Below, piece after piece: positions 10,990 through 33,711 of a stretch of DNA of 37,896 nucleotides. A program made the translations under genes and the position numbers. Source of the DNA: a virus. Each line of letters starts with the position of its first letter. The stretch's first letter is position 1. Location: positions 1-37,896 of IMG/VR virus record IMGVR_UViG_3300028800_000198. One strand, 5' to 3'. The notes under the pieces were generated by a model, which saw only the letters and a list, made by a program, of their open reading frames with translations, ran no database searches and was not told where the DNA came from.

Positions 10990-11958
10990 TCAATTTTCAT
11001 AATCTAAATTAATTACTTTGAAACTAATTGGGCAATGATTAGGTATGTTATATTGCGATCTTATAACAACGCCCTCTCTTTGTTTCCCATTCGAATACAA
11101 GCCTTCTCCTTTTAATTCTAACCCATCTTTTGAAAAGCAATAGCCAGTTTCCAAAATCTTTACGTTAGGGAATTTCATTTCTCTGCTCAAAATCTTAAGC
11201 TCGTCAAAAGAAAAATACCTATGGTTATGAATGTCATAAGCCGAAAACATAAAACCTTCTAGCTCAGAAAGCCCCATAGGGTTGCTCTGAATTTTAGGCC
11301 CGCAAGTTTCCCATTGAATCGTTACGCCCTCTGGTAAATTCTCTTCGACTTTGTATTTTTCAGCCAACAGCCAATAACCGTTATCAGAATTCCTTTCTAA
11401 CTCAAGGTTTCTGGAGCATATGCCAAACGTCCCTTTGTATCGATAAGCAGTCGTCGATGATCCGTCGCATTTTTCGGTAATATAATACGCCTTTCCTACA
11501 AGTGCATCCACAAGATCCGCGTGCATCTGATAATTTAGCTCGTCTGTCTTAGGCAAGAATGCAGGAAACGGGCCTTTTGCTATTCCTTGTAAGTGAGGAG
11601 AGATAGGCTTGTAATATTTCTTTACCCCTAAAAGTTCTGTTAAATCTAAACCAACCTCACCCAACATATAAGTCGCTAATGGCACAATTAAAACTTCACT
11701 AGGAGCCCCCCTAAATCTCTGCATTTTTACGCGCCAATTTGATTTTTCCATGAATTTCAGTTCTTCACTGGGAGGAATAAGGGAATCAGGAAGGTAGACA
11801 GCGCACAAATCCCCCGCTTGGAATTGATCTTTCTTCACGATCCCTTTCCATTTGCCACCCGCTCCACATACCACAGTCGCCGAAACAATGAAATCCGCGT
11901 TCTCGATGAGCTGAAGATCAACAATTTTGCCGACATACACTAAAGGTTTGTAATCCAT
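10990..11958 (-). CDS. RNA ligase, DRB0094/Rnl5-like family
   Basis: 322 residues with an N-terminal OB-like domain (about 1-110) and a C-terminal nucleotidyltransferase domain. Covalent nucleotidyl transferase motifs are intact: motif I TEKCDGSS with Lys163 as the AMP acceptor, motif III GICSRNLEL (179-187), motif IV REGVVIR (Glu295) and motif V SFKVIN (Lys314). The OB-then-ligase order is that of the Deinococcus Rnl5-type enzyme, which seals 3'-OH/5'-phosphate nicks whose 3'-OH strand is RNA. In a phage it may repair RNA cut by host defence, or join RNA to DNA. It heads a leftward unit with two DUF29 genes inside the rightward late block, like an acquired cassette. AGAGGG precedes the ATG. 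Confidence 0.85.
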   Translation of the reverse strand: MDYKPLVYVGKIVDLQLIENADFIVSATVVCGAGGKWKGIVKKDQFQAGDLCAVYLPDSLIPPSEELKFMEKSNWRVKMQRFRGAPSEVLIVPLATYMLGEVGLDLTELLGVKKYYKPISPHLQGIAKGPFPAFLPKTDELNYQMHADLVDALVGKAYYITEKCDGSSTTAYRYKGTFGICSRNLELERNSDNGYWLLAEKYKVEENLPEGVTIQWETCGPKIQSNPMGLSELEGFMFSAYDIHNHRYFSFDELKILSREMKFPNVKILETGYCFSKDGLELKGEGLYSNGKQREGVVIRSQYNIPNHCPISFKVINLDYEN

Positions 11959-15554: not shown

Positions 15555-15967
15555 TGAGTTCAGGCGTACTTTTTAATAATACTAACGCTGTAACCTCAAC
15601 AGCAGCCGGAACAGCAGGGCAATATTTACAATCCCAAGGCGCAGGATCAGCCCCGACCTTTGTCAATTTTAGCCTACTAGTTGTTGCGTTAACTTCTGTA
15701 ACCACAACACCCTACACAGTTTTAACGACAGATTATTATTTATCGGTAGCTACGGGGACAGCTAAAACCATTAGACTTCCTAATGCACCATCTACTGGGC
15801 GTGTATTTGTAATTAAAGACACAACCGGAAGTGCAAATTCAAATAACATTACAGTTACAACGGTTGGCGGTGTCGTCACAATTGATGGATCAACCAGCTA
15901 TACAGTTAATCTGGCTTATGGATCTTTGCAACTTGTCTTCAACGGCACATCTTATGAGGTTTACTAA
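15554..15967 (+). CDS. Modular tail fibre protein, 137 aa
   Basis: Short N-terminal linker carrying the AGQYLQSQGAGSAPTFVNF variant of the array's GQVL-S-GAG-P motif, then the same C-terminal domain as the preceding gene (TPYTVLTTDYYLSVATGTAK, VFVIKDTTGS, FNGTSYEVY). The TAATG overlap with the previous stop and with the next start indicates coupling. Probably one of several interchangeable tip proteins. Confidence 0.7.
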   Translation: MSSGVLFNNTNAVTSTAAGTAGQYLQSQGAGSAPTFVNFSLLVVALTSVTTTPYTVLTTDYYLSVATGTAKTIRLPNAPSTGRVFVIKDTTGSANSNNITVTTVGGVVTIDGSTSYTVNLAYGSLQLVFNGTSYEVY

Positions 15968-16779
15968 TGGCATATAATCCAAAGGCTTTAACTGTAGCGC
16001 AAGGTGGAACCGGATCGATTACTCTAACGGCATACAATTTAGTTGTAGGTAATGGAGCGAGCGCTCCCGCTTTAGTGGCTCCCAGTGCAACGTCTGGGAT
16101 TCCTCTTGTGTCAGGGGGATCAAGTGCCAATCCGAGCTATACCACCGCAGTTGTAGCGGGTGGAGGAACAGGCGTAGCCTCTACCACCGCTTACGCTGTC
16201 CTTTGCGGAGGAACAACGTCTACAGGAGCGTTACAATCTATTGCGGGAGTTGGCACCTCTGGACAAGTACTTACGAGCAATGGGGCTGGCGCATTACCTA
16301 CTTTTCAGGCTGCGGGAGGCGGTGGATCGAGCACCTATTTTTCAGCTGCTCTAACAAATAATGCCTATGCAAATTCAACGGGAGACGGTACTCAGATCAA
16401 CGCCGTTATATTTGATACAGTAAATCGCAATACAGGAAGTGCTTACAATAATTCCACAGGTGTATTTACCGCTCCTAGCAATGACTTTTATTTTTTTAAT
16501 GCAGTCTTGTTATTTTCAAACATTAACCCAGCATTAAATCTTGTATTTAATATGTTTATCTATTCTAGCATTTTCATAGCTAGAGTAGAAGTAAGTGCGG
16601 CAAATATGGCTGCGGCATCTGACTCAGGACGACTCATTTACTCAATGGGCGGTGGTTATTATCTTACAGCAGGAACACAAGTACAGGTTGGTTTAAACGT
16701 AACCGGTTCATCTAAAACGGTTAACGTTGTAGGGCAATCGGACAATACATGTAACTTTTGCGGATTTTCATTACACTAA
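15967..16779 (+). CDS. Tail fibre protein with C-terminal C1q-like domain, 270 aa
   Basis: Residues 1-118 contain fibre shaft repeats (AQGGTGSITLTAYNLVVG and the GTSGQVLTSNGAGALPTFQ motif). Residues about 122-270 match a C1q/TNF-like jelly-roll: an N-A-TGDGT segment, VIFDTVNRNTGSAYNNSTG, then FTAPSNDFYFFNA, and a closing CNFCGFSLH. C1q-like domains trimerise and bind surface ligands, so this is probably a receptor-binding tip. Two further C1q-like modules occur in the next two genes. Confidence 0.75.
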   Translation: MAYNPKALTVAQGGTGSITLTAYNLVVGNGASAPALVAPSATSGIPLVSGGSSANPSYTTAVVAGGGTGVASTTAYAVLCGGTTSTGALQSIAGVGTSGQVLTSNGAGALPTFQAAGGGGSSTYFSAALTNNAYANSTGDGTQINAVIFDTVNRNTGSAYNNSTGVFTAPSNDFYFFNAVLLFSNINPALNLVFNMFIYSSIFIARVEVSAANMAAASDSGRLIYSMGGGYYLTAGTQVQVGLNVTGSSKTVNVVGQSDNTCNFCGFSLH

Positions 16780-16789
16780 GGATTAAAAA

Positions 16790-18043
16790 ATGTCATATGT
16801 AGGCGCAAAGCCATATCCAATCAGAGACGGAGGAACAGGACAAATTGTTGCGCCTTCCAACGGTCAATTGCTCATAGGGAATGGCGGGGCGTTCAGCGTT
16901 GCATCTCTAACAGCTGGCAGCGGGATCTTAATTAGCCCGGGCCCCGGTTCAGTGACCATTGCTTCTACTGTAGCGCCTCCCGTCTTAACGCCCGTATCAT
17001 TGGCAAGGCTTACTTCTGTACAAAACAATGTAACGGGAGATGGCACAGATTATACCCCCATTATTTTTGATACAGCAGATACTAACGTGGGATCGGCTTA
17101 TAATGCAGCTACAGGGGTATTTACTGTGCCCGCCACGCAAGCGTATGTTTTTTCCTTTGGATTGAGCGTACAGCAAATAGCCAACACCCATACTTTATGC
17201 AGATTCAAGATTGAATCTTCAGCTGGCGACGTCGCTTATGGATTTTACGGCAATCCTTATCCCATTGCTTACGGTGGACAAATAAATCTCTCGCAAACCG
17301 TTGTAATGTATCTTACGGCAAGCACTACCGTCCAAGTTTCTCTGCAAGTATCGAACGGAGCTAAAACCGTTGATGTCTTTGGGGACGCCTCTGGAAATTA
17401 CGACAGCTGGTTCGCGGCTTATCTTTTGGCCGGAAATAATGGATCTACCAGTACTTTAGATTCCTTGATAGACGGATCTGGAAATGCAGTTACTCCAAAC
17501 GGCGGGGCGATTACCTTTGTTGACGGAACGGCGGTCAGTTCTCTTACAGGATCGGCCAACCATATCACATTCGATGTCTACAACAGGACATACCACTCTA
17601 TCCAGATAGGAAACAGCGCAGGATCTTTAGCCAACCTTTCTACGGGAACTTCTGGACAGGTTTTAGTGTCTCAAGGAGCTTCGGCAGATCCTTTATGGGT
17701 CACTTTAGGAAGCGTTGTAATTTGGATTTCGGTAGCAGGAACCTCCCAGCCCATGATAACTCAGCGAGGATATGTAAATCAAAACGCTGGCCTTACAACT
17801 TTTACACTCCCTGCTAGCGCGAATTTCGGCGATATCATAGAGATTGCAGGAGTTGGAGCGGGGGGATGGACAATTGCCCAAAATGCAGGGCAAAGCATGG
17901 TTGTAGGTTCTCTTACGTCTACTGTAGGAGTGGGCGGGTCTGTGTCATCTACCGCTGCCACTGACACAATCCGGTTCCTTTGCGTCACAGCTAACACAAC
18001 TTTCAAGGCTCTAGATTGGGCCGGCAACTTAACGGTGGTCTAA
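16790..18043 (+). CDS. Tail fibre protein with internal C1q-like domain, 417 aa
   Basis: Residues 1-65 are a shaft start, about 69-210 a C1q-like jelly-roll (NNVTGDGTDYTPIIFDTAD, SAYNAATGVFTVPATQAYVF), about 215-305 a GSANHITFDV/GTSGQVLVSQGASADP module that recurs in the 18043 gene, and about 310-417 a further beta domain ending in AGNLTVV. The C1q unit sits internally, not at the tip, so the extra C-terminal domain may be the actual binding head. The stop overlaps the next ATG by one base (TAATG). Confidence 0.75.
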   Translation: MSYVGAKPYPIRDGGTGQIVAPSNGQLLIGNGGAFSVASLTAGSGILISPGPGSVTIASTVAPPVLTPVSLARLTSVQNNVTGDGTDYTPIIFDTADTNVGSAYNAATGVFTVPATQAYVFSFGLSVQQIANTHTLCRFKIESSAGDVAYGFYGNPYPIAYGGQINLSQTVVMYLTASTTVQVSLQVSNGAKTVDVFGDASGNYDSWFAAYLLAGNNGSTSTLDSLIDGSGNAVTPNGGAITFVDGTAVSSLTGSANHITFDVYNRTYHSIQIGNSAGSLANLSTGTSGQVLVSQGASADPLWVTLGSVVIWISVAGTSQPMITQRGYVNQNAGLTTFTLPASANFGDIIEIAGVGAGGWTIAQNAGQSMVVGSLTSTVGVGGSVSSTAATDTIRFLCVTANTTFKALDWAGNLTVV

Positions 18044-19887
18044 TGCCTACAAGCAACGATATTAATGCAAATTCAACCGGTCTAGTAAAATACGACGGAG
18101 CTGGAACGTTTAGCGGGGTTACGACAACTATCCATGATGTTTTGATCGGAGCCGCCTCAAATGGCATCGCGAATGTTGCACCTGGTGCGGTAGGCACGGC
18201 CCTAGTTAGCACAGGGGCTTCGGCTGATCCCGCCTTCCAAGTAGTCCCGGGAATTGGCGTAACGGTCAGTAACCACGCAACGCTCGTCGGAGCAGCCTCA
18301 AATAGCATAACGAGCTTGGCTCTTGGAACTAGCGGGCAAGTGCTCACGAGCAATGGGGCGGGTGTTGATCCCAGTTTTCAAGATGCAGCTACAGGAAGCG
18401 GAATCCAAACCTTGACCGATGGTTCGGCAAACGTTGTTTCTCCAACAGGCGGAACAATCACTTTTACCAATGGCCAGAATGTAGCAAACTTATCCGGCTC
18501 AGCAAATCATATCACTTTCGATGTTACCGGAACGTCTGCGCATGCCGTCCAAGTGGGAAATTCCTCGGGCAATCTAACAAGTCTAGCCACCGGCTCAAGT
18601 GGGCAAGCCTTAGTATCGGGGGGAGCTAGCGCAGATCCGGCTTTTGGAACTCTTCCCGTGAGTGGCGGGGGGTCGGGCTCGGTTTCTTTAACAGGAATTT
18701 TGACCGGAAATGGTACTAGCCCATTCACAGCCAGTACAATTTCACAATACGGAACGGTAATCGCCGGATCCTCAAATGCGGTGAGTAGCGTAGCTCCTGG
18801 AGCAGTGGGAACAGCCCTCGTAAGCAACGGCGTAAGCGCCAATCCTTCCTATCAAGTAATTCCTGGAATTGGTGCAACGCTCGGCGTCCATGACGTTTTG
18901 GTCGGGGGTGCCTCAAATAACATTGTTTCTGTATCTCCATCGACAGCAGGTCTCGTTTTAGCCAGCAACGGCGTTAGTGTCGATCCCAGCTTCCAGACCG
19001 TTCCCGGCGTTGGCGTAACGGTCAGTAACCACGCAACGCTCGTCGGAGCAGCCTCAAATAGCATAACGAGTTTGGCCCTTGGAACTAGCGGGCAAGTGCT
19101 CACGAGCAATGGGGCGGGTGTTGATCCAAGCTATCAAGCGTTGCCATCTACGGTTTTAACAGTCAATGCAGATAGCGGAAGCGCAACGCCAAGCGGTGGC
19201 GTTATTACCCTTTCAGGCGGCACTAGCGGGCTCACAACCTCTGCTTCTTCGGCTACTGTCAACGTCACAGGAACATTAAATGTGGGTCATGGAGGAACTG
19301 GGCTTGCGACTATGACCACTTATGCACTTTTAGCAGGTGGAACAACTGGGACGGGAAATTTACAACAAGTTTCAGGTTTAGGATCTTCGGGTCAAATCTT
19401 GATTTCTAACGGAGCCGGCGCTTTGCCTACTTGGCAAACAAATCCGATAACAGCGGGTTCGATAAATTTTTCATCCAGATTAAGCGGGACCGTATCAAAT
19501 GCCACCGGAGATGGAACCTCTTATGTTTTGATTTGCAATACTATCTTGAAAAATACTGGTAGCGGCTATAATGGAGCTACAGGAGTTTTTACCGCTCCAG
19601 TTACCGGACTTTATTATTTCACTACTATAGTTTCTTTAGAAAATCTATCAGCAGGACATACAACCGGACTAGTTAATTTTTGCGGGCAAGCTCTTAATTC
19701 CAATCCTTTTAACATGGCCACAGCTACTAGTCATGCTGTAGCATTATGCTATACACAAATATTGCAGATGACAGCAGGAGGAACCGCAAATGTTTCAATC
19801 GCTGTGGGTTCTTCTACTAAAACCGTAGGTGTGCAAGGAGGTTCGGGCGTTACCGGATGTTTCTTCTCGGGATTTTTAATAGCATAG
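18043..19887 (+). CDS. Modular tail fibre protein with C-terminal C1q-like domain, 614 aa
   Basis: Start ATG 18043 overlaps the previous stop; an upstream in-frame TTG at 18016 is unlikely. Most of the protein is repeats of about 40 residues with HDVLIGAASN or HATLVGAASNSITSLALG followed by GTSGQVLTSNGAGVDPSFQ. The last about 140 residues are a C1q-like domain (SNATGDGTSYVLICNTIL, GSGYNGATGVFTAPVTGLYYF). A 118-bp stretch is repeated almost exactly within the gene (18254-18371 and 19010-19127), evidence of recent internal duplication or gene conversion. Last gene of the rightward late block. Confidence 0.75.
   Translation: MPTSNDINANSTGLVKYDGAGTFSGVTTTIHDVLIGAASNGIANVAPGAVGTALVSTGASADPAFQVVPGIGVTVSNHATLVGAASNSITSLALGTSGQVLTSNGAGVDPSFQDAATGSGIQTLTDGSANVVSPTGGTITFTNGQNVANLSGSANHITFDVTGTSAHAVQVGNSSGNLTSLATGSSGQALVSGGASADPAFGTLPVSGGGSGSVSLTGILTGNGTSPFTASTISQYGTVIAGSSNAVSSVAPGAVGTALVSNGVSANPSYQVIPGIGATLGVHDVLVGGASNNIVSVSPSTAGLVLASNGVSVDPSFQTVPGVGVTVSNHATLVGAASNSITSLALGTSGQVLTSNGAGVDPSYQALPSTVLTVNADSGSATPSGGVITLSGGTSGLTTSASSATVNVTGTLNVGHGGTGLATMTTYALLAGGTTGTGNLQQVSGLGSSGQILISNGAGALPTWQTNPITAGSINFSSRLSGTVSNATGDGTSYVLICNTILKNTGSGYNGATGVFTAPVTGLYYFTTIVSLENLSAGHTTGLVNFCGQALNSNPFNMATATSHAVALCYTQILQMTAGGTANVSIAVGSSTKTVGVQGGSGVTGCFFSGFLIA
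18254..18371 (+). repeat. 118-bp in-frame direct repeat, copy 1 (copy 2 at 19010-19127)
   Basis: The two copies differ at two positions by eye, both synonymous-type C/T changes in a GCTTGGCTCTT region. The spacing of 756 bases is 252 codons, so recombination between copies would remove or add whole fibre repeats without a frameshift. Confidence 0.9.
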
Positions 19888-30673: not shown

Positions 30674-30963
30674 AAGTTAAAGGAAAAATAGAGAGCATTG
30701 AAAGAATCCGCGAGATAACAGTTGATGATATCTTTTTACAAGATGTTTACGAGAGCGATATTACGGATATGATAAGAGTTATTTTTGGAATCGCTATTTC
30801 AATCGCGACAGAAGAAGCGGTGAAAAAATATTCGCTTAGTTATATAGCTAGCCGAGAAGAATCCAACCTAAAGGACATGGAAGCGACCAAAGAAAAAATA
30901 AAAGACTACGCCCTAGATAAATTATGCGAGATTTTTGGGGTTAAGAATTTAGAGTACATTTAA
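30664..30963 (+). CDS. Hypothetical protein, 99 aa
   Basis: Starts MLVKVKGKIESIERIREITV, with a mixed beta-alpha pattern and a central hydrophobic helix (MIRVIFGIAISIATEEAVKK). The final A of its stop codon is the first base of the terminase ATG, so it is coupled to the packaging gene. It may be a packaging accessory, but no motif shows this. Confidence 0.55.
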   Translation: MLVKVKGKIESIERIREITVDDIFLQDVYESDITDMIRVIFGIAISIATEEAVKKYSLSYIASREESNLKDMEATKEKIKDYALDKLCEIFGVKNLEYI

Positions 30964-32450
30964 TGTCCTTATCCGAAAAACAAATCAAAAGCATTCAAGA
31001 GGCAATCCGACGCTTTAATATTTGGTGTGGCGCGGTTAGATCTGGCAAGACCTTCGCCTCTATTTTAAAGCTCATTGATCTTCTGAAAAATGGGCCTAAA
31101 GGGGATGCAATGGTTGTGGGGGTGAACCGCGAATCGATCCAACGAAACGTTTTGAATTTGCTATTCTCCTTATTAGGCGGTGCGCCCCCCTCTTCTAAAA
31201 CAAACTCCACGAAGGTTTACGGTCGCAATATCTACTTCGTGGGGGCTCATGATGAATCAGCAGTTAGAGCAATCCAAGGTTCTACCCTCTCGCTTTCCTA
31301 TGTCGATGAGATCACCTGTATCCCTGCGCCATTTTGGAAAATGCTGGGCTCTCGTCTTAGCGTACCGGGCGCACAACTCTTAGGCACGACCAACCCAGAA
31401 GGCCCAAGCCACTGGTTCAAGAAAGAGTTCTTAGACAGAACCGACCTGGATCTGATTTGCTGGAATTTCACGCTCGATGATAACCCTTCTCTTGACGAAG
31501 CTTATAAGAATAATCTAAAAAAAGAGTATACTGGGATGTGGTATAAACGCTACATTCTAGGGGAGTGGGCGGTTGCCCACGGTCTAATTTACGACAACTT
31601 TGATGAGTTAAACGTCTATGAAGAGCCGCAAAATCAACCAAATTACTATATCGTGGGAATCGATTACGGTACTAGCAATGCTACTGCTGCCGTTCTATGC
31701 GCCGTGACGCCTACCAGATGGCCACAGATTAGAGTAGTCGAAGAGTATTATTACGATTCCGTGATAAAAGGAAGGTCTAAGACAGACGCAGAGCTAGCGG
31801 ATGATATTTATAGATTCGTAGAGTATAAGACGGTAAGAGCAATCTATGTCGACCCCTCAGCAGCAAGCCTAAAGCTGGAGCTAAGAAACCGCAATCTCCC
31901 TGTATTGGATGCGAAAAACGATGTACTCGAAGGGATCAAGGTTACCTCTAAATTCATCGCTGGCAAAAACCTTGTTGTCCATAAATCATGCCGAACTCTG
32001 ATTGATGTCATTCAATCTTATTCATGGGATCCAAAAGCAGCAGATAGGGGTTTAGACAAACCTTTAAAAGAGCATGAGCATATTTGCGTTTCAGGAGATA
32101 CCGAAGTATTAACGGTTTCTGGTTATGAAAAAATTAAAGAATTAGAAAAACATCGCAGAGGAGGTATAATAAATTTTAATAAAGGTTTGTATAGACTGGA
32201 GTATTCTATATATAAAAATGTTTTTTTGACTAAAAGAAATGTAGAAGTCTGGTGTTTAGAATTAGAAGATGGGAAAAAATTGATTGCTACGCCTGACCAT
32301 AAAGTTATGACAGCCAACGGAATGAAGATGTTGCAAGAATTGACTCTTTGCGATATGATAATTACATGCGATATCAAGAACATTTCGGAAGAAAATTTTA
32401 TCAATGCAAAAGAACGGGTTATTGGATCTCTACCAATTACCCAAGAGTAA
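30963..32450 (+). CDS. terL: Terminase large subunit, N-terminal part fused to N-intein
   Basis: 495 residues. The first 374 are terminase: Walker A GAVRSGKT (23-30), Walker B LSYVDE with Asp115 and Glu116, coupling motif GTTNPEG (141-147), nuclease motif I VGIDYG (Asp234), motif II IYVDPS (Asp297). From Cys375 the sequence is an intein: CVSGDTEVLT (block A) and ATPDHKVMT (block B, with Thr443-x-x-His446). The frame closes at 32450 without a C-terminal splicing motif, and the missing nuclease motif III is encoded at 33030. This protein can only give active terminase after trans-splicing with the product of 32898-33179. The last 28 or so residues are coded where the HNH gene overlaps and may not be intein proper. 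Confidence 0.95.
   Translation: MSLSEKQIKSIQEAIRRFNIWCGAVRSGKTFASILKLIDLLKNGPKGDAMVVGVNRESIQRNVLNLLFSLLGGAPPSSKTNSTKVYGRNIYFVGAHDESAVRAIQGSTLSLSYVDEITCIPAPFWKMLGSRLSVPGAQLLGTTNPEGPSHWFKKEFLDRTDLDLICWNFTLDDNPSLDEAYKNNLKKEYTGMWYKRYILGEWAVAHGLIYDNFDELNVYEEPQNQPNYYIVGIDYGTSNATAAVLCAVTPTRWPQIRVVEEYYYDSVIKGRSKTDAELADDIYRFVEYKTVRAIYVDPSAASLKLELRNRNLPVLDAKNDVLEGIKVTSKFIAGKNLVVHKSCRTLIDVIQSYSWDPKAADRGLDKPLKEHEHICVSGDTEVLTVSGYEKIKELEKHRRGGIINFNKGLYRLEYSIYKNVFLTKRNVEVWCLELEDGKKLIATPDHKVMTANGMKMLQELTLCDMIITCDIKNISEENFINAKERVIGSLPITQE
32085..32447 (+). other. N-terminal split-intein half (coding segment)
   Basis: Codes for 121 residues beginning at Cys375 of the upper terminase part. Block A and block B residues needed for the first acyl shift are intact. 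Base composition turns more AT-rich at this junction, consistent with later insertion. The fold-forming part probably ends near LCDMIITC, and the remainder is an overlap-encoded tail. Confidence 0.88.
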
Positions 32451-32962
32451 GAGCTCATACTTGGGTATGGGAAAATTTAAAAGAGAAAGTTCCTAAAGGA
32501 ATGCATTTGCACCATATTGATGGCGACAAATCTAACAATTCTATAGACAACTTAGAGTCAGTTTCTCCAAAAAAACACCTAGAATTGCATGCATCTCCAC
32601 TAAGAACGGAAAAAAGAAAGCAACACGTTGAAAAAATTAGACATTTAACAAAGGCATGGCATGCCAGTGAAGAAGGAAGAAGGTGGCATTCTAATCACGC
32701 ATACAATTCCCTTCCGACAGTTATGGGCGTTGAATATGATTTAACATGCGAACAATGCCAAATAAAATTTAAGGGCAAAAAATCAGATCAAAAATTTTGC
32801 TCTAATGCGTGCAAGTCTAAATTTAGAAGAGATGCAGGTTTTGATGACATAGAAATCAAATGCATTTTTTGCGAAACGAAATTTAAAAGGAATAAGTATG
32901 CAAAAGGAAGATTTTGCTCTAAAAGCTGTAGCTATAAAAAGTATTGGCAGAGTAGAAAATGA
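32366..32962 (+). CDS. HNH homing endonuclease nested between split-intein halves
   Basis: 198 residues from the ATG at 32366; a TTG at 32348 could add six. Reading frame differs from both terminase parts. Residues 27-65 hold the HNH core: RVRAHTWVWENL, GMHLHHIDGD (46-54), NNSIDNLESV. Two Cys clusters follow, CEQC-x15-FCSNAC and CIFC-x15-FCSKSC, each a zinc-finger-like knuckle for DNA binding. It overlaps the N-part by 85 bases and the C-part by 65. It probably cuts terminase genes lacking the intein, spreading the insertion. No clear Shine-Dalgarno precedes its start, so expression may be low. Confidence 0.9.
   Translation: MRYQEHFGRKFYQCKRTGYWISTNYPRVRAHTWVWENLKEKVPKGMHLHHIDGDKSNNSIDNLESVSPKKHLELHASPLRTEKRKQHVEKIRHLTKAWHASEEGRRWHSNHAYNSLPTVMGVEYDLTCEQCQIKFKGKKSDQKFCSNACKSKFRRDAGFDDIEIKCIFCETKFKRNKYAKGRFCSKSCSYKKYWQSRK
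32886..32891 (+). promoter_or_regulatory. Internal ribosome binding site for the C-terminal terminase part
   Basis: AAAGGA, 6 bases before the ATG at 32898, lies inside the HNH coding sequence. It supports independent translation of the C-intein/terminase protein from the same mRNA, not a frameshift product. Confidence 0.7.
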
Positions 32963-33029
32963 AGATGTTTATTGTTTAGCAACTGAAACGAATGGCAATT
33001 TTATAGCAAATGGCATAGTTGTGTCGAAT
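32898..33029 (+). other. C-terminal split-intein half (coding segment)
   Basis: 132 bases, 44 residues, ending in Asn before the catalytic +1 Cys (33030-33032). Its small size is typical of naturally split C-inteins. Combined with the N-half, it makes a 165-residue intein without an endonuclease domain. Confidence 0.88.
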
Positions 33030-33179
33030 TGCGACGCTCTTCGCTATGCCATCTACTCCAACTTCCCCACAGGCCAATTTTATGTCACTGGCGAAAACAT
33101 GACCATTGATCAGATTCGGCAACAAGCTTATGGCGACGAGCCGTTTATTCTAAATCCGGGGGCAGGGGGGTATTGTTAA
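32898..33179 (+). CDS. terL: Terminase large subunit, C-terminal part preceded by C-intein
   Basis: 93 residues. The first 44 are the C-intein: DVYCLATETNGNFIANG (block F) then IVVSN (block G). The rest is terminase C-extein starting at Cys45: CDALRYAIYSNFPTG, ending in NPGAGGYC. Asp46 supplies nuclease motif III, matching the H-x-x-DALRY motif when joined to EHEHI from the N-part. Trans-splicing gives about 374 + 49 = 423 residues, usual size for this terminase family. Block G lacks the usual penultimate His (Ser instead), and block F has Gly in place of one His, so splicing kinetics may differ. Ribosome binding site AAAGGA at 32886. Confidence 0.93.
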   Translation: MQKEDFALKAVAIKSIGRVENEDVYCLATETNGNFIANGIVVSNCDALRYAIYSNFPTGQFYVTGENMTIDQIRQQAYGDEPFILNPGAGGYC

Positions 33180-33351
33180 TTTTTTCACTCTTATTTTCGA
33201 TTGGATTAGGATTTCTCCAATTGTAAATATCGACAAACATTTGCATATATTCACTGATAGTAACGCAACGTCTTACCGCATTCACTTTAGTAATTACCTT
33301 TTTAAGAAATATATCCATATCAATTTCTTTTGATATAAGAAAAGCCATCAA
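33145..33351 (-). CDS. Small hypothetical protein, possibly truncated, 68 aa
   Basis: Starts at TTG 33351 or the ATG next to it at 33348. The same frame stays open upstream to about 33419 (LWQEKAQRYCDFINKSFFKS) without a usual start codon, so this could be the remains of a longer gene. The visible part is helical and basic (FLKKVITKVNAVRRCVT). Its end overlaps the terminase C-part by 35 bases, convergently. No recognised family. Confidence 0.4.
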   Translation of the reverse strand: MMAFLISKEIDMDIFLKKVITKVNAVRRCVTISEYMQMFVDIYNWRNPNPIENKSEKINNTPLPPDLE

Positions 33352-33431
33352 TCCGCTTTTAAAGAACGATTTATTTATAAAATCGCAATACCGTTGCGCC
33401 TTTTCCTGCCATAATTTCTATCTATTGTAGG

Positions 33432-33656
33432 TTATTTTCTTCTCTCTTCAATCGCGCACAATCGTCCATGAAAATCCTTCATTTCATTCTGAATTGCTCT
33501 AAGAATATCCACCACATCGCGCCTCAATTCTTTCGTTTCTTGGTCGAAATGCCTAGCGTCTGCTCTGGCCTCTGATCTCACCCAAATAAATACAGGGAAC
33601 ATCCAAGCCATATTCCCGAACGCTATCACTAAAATTTGTATCCAGCTCATTTCCAT
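33432..33656 (-). CDS. Membrane protein with coiled coil, 74 aa
   Basis: AAGGAG is 8 bases ahead of the ATG at 33656. N-terminal membrane helix about 5-26 (WIQILVIAFGNMAWMFPVFI) followed by a charged coiled coil (HFDQETKELRRDVVDILRAI) and a basic end. Same design as the small proteins at 24305 and 24596, so the genome carries three membrane-anchor plus coiled-coil genes. Possible lysis or membrane-scaffold role. Transcribed leftward from the divergent gap before the portal. Confidence 0.6.
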   Translation of the reverse strand: MEMSWIQILVIAFGNMAWMFPVFIWVRSEARADARHFDQETKELRRDVVDILRAIQNEMKDFHGRLCAIEERRK

Positions 33657-33711
33657 AACTTTTCTCCTTTTTCATGGAACATTCTACCAAAACTGTCGCC
33701 CACCGAGCAAC

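Follow-up and report, generated by a model that had tools for sequence, protein, structure and literature searches.

The divided terminase gene

How could a phage make the motor that packages its DNA if the gene for the large terminase subunit (TerL) closes before the end of the nuclease domain and resumes only within the far end of a separate endonuclease gene? This question is raised by an IMG/VR virus contig of 37,896 nucleotides, a single metagenomic contig whose whole length is referred to here as the window. Based on computational analysis of the window and of its relatives, the locus at 30963-33179 is read, with a probability of roughly 0.9, as a fractured TerL gene, in which split-intein halves would rejoin the two terminase pieces by trans-splicing and flank an overlapping gene for an HNH homing endonuclease. 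A preliminary description of this DNA had proposed a fractured terminase, and that interpretation is supported by comparative evidence from relatives.

Three successive open reading frames (ORFs) on the plus strand make up the locus. The first (30963-32450, 495 amino acids) encodes the TerL N-extein (30963-32084, 374 amino acids), which comprises the ATPase and most of the nuclease domain and ends in KEHEHI, followed by the N-terminal intein half (IntN, 32085-32447) and a stop codon at 32448-32450. The second is the HNH gene (32366-32962, 198 amino acids). The third begins at the ATG at 32898 and extends to 33179 (93 amino acids), and it encodes the C-terminal intein half (IntC, 32898-33029) and the TerL C-extein (33030-33176, 49 amino acids), which begins with CDALRYAIYSNF, contains a D-A-x-R-Y motif, and ends in GGYC before the stop codon at 33177-33179. 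IntN and IntC share one frame, and the HNH gene lies in the -1 frame. The earlier claims thus hold in their details: TerL is carried on two separate ORFs with complementary intein blocks, the intein begins at Cys375 (codon 32085-32087), IntC has 44 residues, and a complete HNH gene in another frame overlaps the first ORF by 85 nucleotides and the third by 65, as counted from its ATG at 32366.

The search against terminase and intein profiles that the preliminary description had suggested places the terminase and the intein N part in the first ORF and the intein C part in the third. The first ORF matches Terminase_3 (1e-10) and Terminase_6N of Pfam and phrog_2 of PHROGs (2e-46). The Intein_splicing profile matches this ORF with its N part (positions 5-111, 3e-8) and the IntC ORF with its C part (positions 122-155, 3e-5), both matches being below the Pfam whole-domain cut-off, as expected for half domains; a home-made IntC hidden Markov model matches IntC at 3e-18. 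IntN carries blocks A (CVSGDTEVLT) and B (TPDH) and matches the DnaB, NrdJ-1, and DnaE inteins in the PDB, and IntC carries blocks F and G and ends in NFIANGIVVSN. The main catalytic residues of an intein are present, namely Cys1 (residue 375), the TxxH of block B, the terminal Asn, and Cys+1, and these are kept in nearly all relatives too. As encoded, IntN has 121 amino acids, of which the final 22 or so are the start of the HNH gene read out of frame. The natural IntN would have about 99 amino acids and end near 32380, as the IntN of two related loci (L245 and L261) stops at the homologous point.

Removal of the intein would give a predicted TerL of 423 amino acids (374 plus 49) with the junction HI/CDALRY. 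For comparison of the exteins, 20 TerL relatives were fetched, nearly all of which are intein-free. The register across the junction matches that of intein-free TerLs, as in locus L019 (KEHEHICDALRYACYTAF) against the window (KEHEHI/CDALRYAIYSNF), and the uninterrupted junction is found in L019 as KEHEHICDALRY and in L010 as DHICDALRY. Chance is excluded because intein-free homologues show this exact junction uninterrupted. The N-extein is 59-76% identical to the TerLs of relatives (68-77% in a second comparison, over the relatives for which both exteins were compared) and the C-extein 44-62% identical, in register, to intact TerL C-termini, so the two exteins are in-register parts of one host protein, as in a fractured gene.

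The HNH endonuclease gene

The stop-to-stop span of the HNH frame is 32303-32962; both homology and the structural model begin at the ATG at 32366, and a longer start at TTG 32348 is not needed. The product matches HNH_3 of Pfam (1.3e-12) and, over nearly its full length, phrog_15471, an HNH endonuclease family (2.7e-34). It consists of an HNH_3 core with two pairs of CxxC-type zinc-binding motifs, all intact, and every invariant residue is kept (H49, H50, N58, H71, and C128 to C188). The AlphaFold model from ATG to stop has a mean predicted local distance difference test score (pLDDT) of 94.9, and its best, weak, fold match in the PDB is I-HmuI, an HNH homing endonuclease.

Survey of relatives and their two states

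A scan of viral contigs for close relatives with the window HNH alone returned nothing. Relatives were collected instead by an alignment-based search of viral contigs and GTDB genomes, from which the best 80 loci each were kept, a biased sample, and were classed with home-made IntN, IntC, and HNH profiles. In about 70 non-redundant loci, IntN and IntC lie in one continuous ORF on which the HNH gene is overprinted in the -1 frame. Another 26 loci, the window included, are fractured, and the fractured layout is found in about 30 loci overall, again with the window. Of the remaining survey loci, some lack a neighbouring intein and others are truncated by the end of their contig. The sole survey locus with the HNH in the intein frame is L186 (1116-2156, on a Nitrososphaerales contig), whose extein may not be TerL. 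Terminase large subunit families match the N-exteins of at least 24 of the 26 fractured loci and of most continuous ones. L023, L026, L029, L034, L107, and some 65 others are continuous inteins, mostly in TerL, with no intein-frame stop over about 600 nucleotides. Two successive inteins occur within one ORF in L154 and L140.

The two states differ in how the intein frame is used across the HNH gene. Stops in that frame were counted against a null in which synonymous HNH codons were resampled with the gene's own third-position composition. Continuous loci (n = 69) have none, which defines the class, against 5.4 expected per locus, and the open frame must therefore be maintained by selection. 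In the fractured loci (n = 26), 8.0 stops per locus were observed and 7.7 expected, and loci without a detected intein (n = 39) have 7.7 of each. The window has 10 stops against 8.0 expected; its intein frame is thus unconstrained, as a split gene predicts.

Initiation of IntC differs in parallel. In the window, a Shine-Dalgarno-like site (AAAAGGA) lies inside the HNH gene immediately 5' of the IntC start (32883-32897, giving AAAAGGA-ATAAGT-ATG), and plausible sites also precede IntC in L245, L261, Brochothrix phage BL3, and the Vibrio phage described below. A match of at least 4 nucleotides was found at the IntC start in 21/26 fractured loci versus 22/71 continuous loci (p = 1.8e-5), and an ATG or GTG with a match of at least 5 nucleotides in 13/26 versus 1/71 (p = 2.7e-8), where the significance given by the p values is an upper estimate, because related loci are not independent. 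Since 18 of 27 other starts in the window have such a match, the host appears to use these sites.

The register of the HNH gene with respect to the two halves is also informative. Its offset from IntN is spread over the three frames in fractured loci (6/9/10), which fits the absence of a translational link between HNH and IntN. The offset from IntC is -1 in 21 of 25 fractured loci (p = 2.6e-7 versus uniform), and this fixed offset is read as one ancestral overlapping HNH-IntC junction.

The HNH gene and the start of IntC probably form one overlapping cassette, held in a fixed -1 register, that occurs in phage TerL inteins in an overprinted and a fractured state. In the overprinted state, seen in about 70 loci on bacterial and archaeal contigs, selection would keep about 600 nucleotides stop-free although their translation is presumably a disordered linker. 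In the fractured state, seen in about 30 loci with the window, this constraint would have been dropped and a ribosome-binding site for IntC would lie inside the HNH gene. The model of the dual-coded intein of L107 has a confident Hint-like fold at residues 1-89 and 279-318, which matches the Mtu RecA, gp41-1, and DnaB inteins; the linker between them, which corresponds to out-of-frame translation of the HNH gene, has a pLDDT of about 45 and is probably disordered. In close dual-coded pairs, 47% of the substitutions fall at HNH third codon positions, the same share as in free-standing HNHs (47%), and this third-position bias marks the HNH frame as the frame with the conserved protein sequence.

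Descent of all fractured loci from dual-coded ancestors was considered and rejected: the HNH tree, which is unrooted with many weak branches so that the direction of change is not readable from it, groups fractured HNHs mostly with free-standing ones adjacent to TerL.

The same layout in other phages

The fractured TerL layout recurs in relatives of the window, including several isolated phages. Searched at the DNA level, phage records gave no match to the window element. Lactobacillus phage CL2 (complete, KR905067.1) matches the window over TerL-N/IntN and HNH, the HNH proteins being about 36% identical. The genes listed in its record are, in order, large terminase, HNH endonuclease, and portal; an unannotated IntC plus C-extein ending in HNCMDATRYFVMQVIKRRNAAHTFKNTSKYF lies in the intervening DNA. 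In Brochothrix phage BL3, gp2 is TerL-N plus IntN and gp3 (L190:2286-2582), directly after terL and with no assigned function in the record, is IntC plus C-extein; the HNH is reduced to a zinc-finger remnant. In Vibrio phage 1.238.B, two "hint domain" genes flank an unannotated HNH, and the site in TerL differs from that of the window. A phage-like plasmid of Fructilactobacillus ixorae has the order TerL-N/IntN, HNH, IntC, and L245 and L261, both in the window's own TerL clade, have the same fractured layout with an HNH.

Site occupancy and mobility

The window's TerL clade comprises about 90 loci, some overlapping, and the intein site is empty in nearly all of them. Three others (L018, L021, and L254) have inteins without an intact HNH, of which L018 retains an HNH remnant in the -1 frame. 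This patchy occupancy fits homing, as circumstantial evidence. Several loci of the clade have a free-standing HNH directly 3' of an intact TerL, and the nearest HNH to that of the window (51% identical) is such a gene next to TerL in L016, which suggests a TerL-linked endonuclease able to live outside inteins. Like the patchy occupancy, these TerL-adjacent relatives are circumstantial evidence for cleavage of intein-free terL at or near the insertion site. Searched against Rfam at gathering thresholds, 19 intein-free HNH loci showed no group I intron that could act as carrier.

Genes of the HNH_3/phrog_15471 family lie directly downstream of an intact, intein-free TerL in L016 (6326-6934), L219, L231, L260, L263, and L267. 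In Exiguobacterium phage vB_EauM-23 (L025:2700-3720), TerL seems broken at the same motif (DKNNHSM/CDATRYAMEMD) with an HNH between the parts, and neither intein halves nor, at the Rfam gathering threshold, a group I intron was found there.

Proposed mechanism and alternative explanations

A possible mechanism can be proposed from these observations. TerL-N-IntN and IntC-TerL-C would be translated separately, probably from one transcript, with IntC initiated from a Shine-Dalgarno site of its own and an ATG that lies within the last part of the HNH gene. The intein halves could then associate and splice in trans to form the intact 423-residue TerL. The HNH protein may act as a homing endonuclease directed at TerL: it would cut terL alleles that lack the intein, near the DH..DALRY motif, and repair could then copy the whole IntN-HNH-IntC block. 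Because the C piece bears the D-A-x-R-Y motif, which we take to be the conserved last motif of the TerL nuclease domain, there is strong reason to expect that DNA packaging would depend on trans-splicing.

The break itself might be an artifact, with assembly or sequencing indels having disrupted a cis-splicing intein, so that the real gene would be a single ORF carrying the HNH as an in-frame domain. The window is a metagenomic contig without read data, and a -1 followed by a +1 shift would bring the HNH into frame. However, the two halves already share a frame, so two compensating errors would be needed, and ten stops are not one sequencing error in a dual-coded intein. L186 is the only one of about 100 related intein loci in which the HNH shares the frame of both intein halves, records of the isolated phages CL2, TJE1, and Highwayman also place it outside the intein frame, and the Shine-Dalgarno match at the IntC start is likewise at odds with an artifact, which is thus very improbable. 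Just as improbable is programmed ribosomal frameshifting that would enter the HNH by a -1 shift and leave it by a +1 shift to yield one polypeptide. A slippery A AAT TTT does stand in the right frame at 32393-32399, but slippery heptamers are not enriched in fractured loci (0.0054 per codon at the IntN/HNH junction versus 0.0158 in the N-extein), the HNH-IntN offset varies among 0, 1, and 2 so that no conserved shift fits, a second, +1 shift would also be required, and IntC has its own ribosome-binding site.

Several points weigh against a fractured, trans-splicing terminase. The penultimate intein residue in the window is Ser, not His, a Ser-Asn ending that is also found in 25 of 72 continuous inteins. 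The HNH start has no Shine-Dalgarno match, and expression of the HNH may therefore be weak. No second contig with the window junction was found in a search that may miss near-identical records, and trans-splicing in vivo, cleavage of empty terL, and homing are steps that we infer from sequence. The Ser, together with the inferred nature of splicing, would suit a TerL whose halves work non-covalently, or whose N piece suffices, with splicing weak or lost. This reading is nonetheless given only a slight chance: diverged loci conserve the remaining catalytic residues and the Cys+1 junction, the C piece holds the conserved D-A-x-R-Y motif, and BL3 retains IntN and IntC though its HNH is almost gone, which indicates that the splicing parts are under selection.

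Other features of the window

The stretch of about 530 nucleotides (33180-33711) that separates the TerL C piece from the portal gene holds only small minus-strand ORFs (33145-33351 and 33432-33656), which is unusual for a packaging operon. At 15967-19887, phrog_15750, of unknown function, matches part of each of three successive ORFs. An RNA ligase gene (phrog_968, 7e-40) lies on the minus strand at 10990-11958, downstream of the structural genes.

Comparison with known systems

Natural split inteins are prized tools, and their origin is an open question. If the cassette reading is true, it would connect overprinting directly, in evolutionary terms, with the emergence of natural split inteins. 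One endonuclease family occurs in dual-coded and split states, within a single host gene and frequently close to one site, each state leaving a measurable signature, namely stop avoidance when dual-coded and an IntC ribosome-binding site when split. The essential packaging motor of several isolated, culturable phages should be made by trans-splicing, which is directly testable. The fractured layout would also account for small genes that follow terL and are unannotated or labelled "unknown", such as BL3 gp3, and it offers about 30 new split-intein candidates for biotechnology.

Dassa et al. are said to have described, in 2009, fractured genes in which split-intein halves surround a separate, Vsr-like homing endonuclease gene, with gp41, NrdA/J, and IMPDH as hosts. 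A host gene split by intein halves with a separate endonuclease gene between them is common to those cases and the window. The window differs from them in its host (TerL), in its endonuclease (HNH_3/phrog_15471), and in the overlap with both halves. It also differs from a canonical bifunctional HNH intein, in which the endonuclease is in frame, as the HNH is in the -1 frame across 10 intein-frame stops.

The preliminary description had known of no well-described terminase case with overlap on both sides. This was overstated, as split inteins in TerL (AceL and GOS), the PolB with HNH of MIJ3, and the unannotated CL2, BL3, and Vibrio phage 1.238 loci exist; the arrangement in TerL nevertheless appears to be unreported, and no paper describing it was found in a search that fell short of most subscription journals and of the 2025 actinobacteriophage intein preprint. 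Part of the dual coding may already be reported in the 2025 preprint of Gosselin, Arsenault, and Gogarten on inteins of "non-canonical architecture". AceL-TerL and GOS-TerL are natural split inteins of phage TerL that trans-splice in vitro and have an atypical split with an IntN of 25-37 amino acids (PMC11766414), whereas the window has a canonical split, with an IntN of about 99 and an IntC of 44 amino acids, and an HNH gene at the break. In the jumbo phage MIJ3, a putative split PolB intein has the HNH gene orf154 between its parts (PMC6892783); the host gene there is PolB and the available excerpt of that account describes no overlap, whereas in the window the host is TerL and the HNH gene overlaps both halves. 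ShiLan shares with the window a zinc-finger HNH that lies out of frame within a different phage gene, in its case a methylase (PMC11855218). In ShiLan, however, there is no intein domain and the host frame is without stops, whereas in the window intein halves flank the HNH gene and the host frame is closed. Compared with these systems, the family of fractured TerL genes overlapped by an HNH gene is apparently new, as is its dual-coded sister state.
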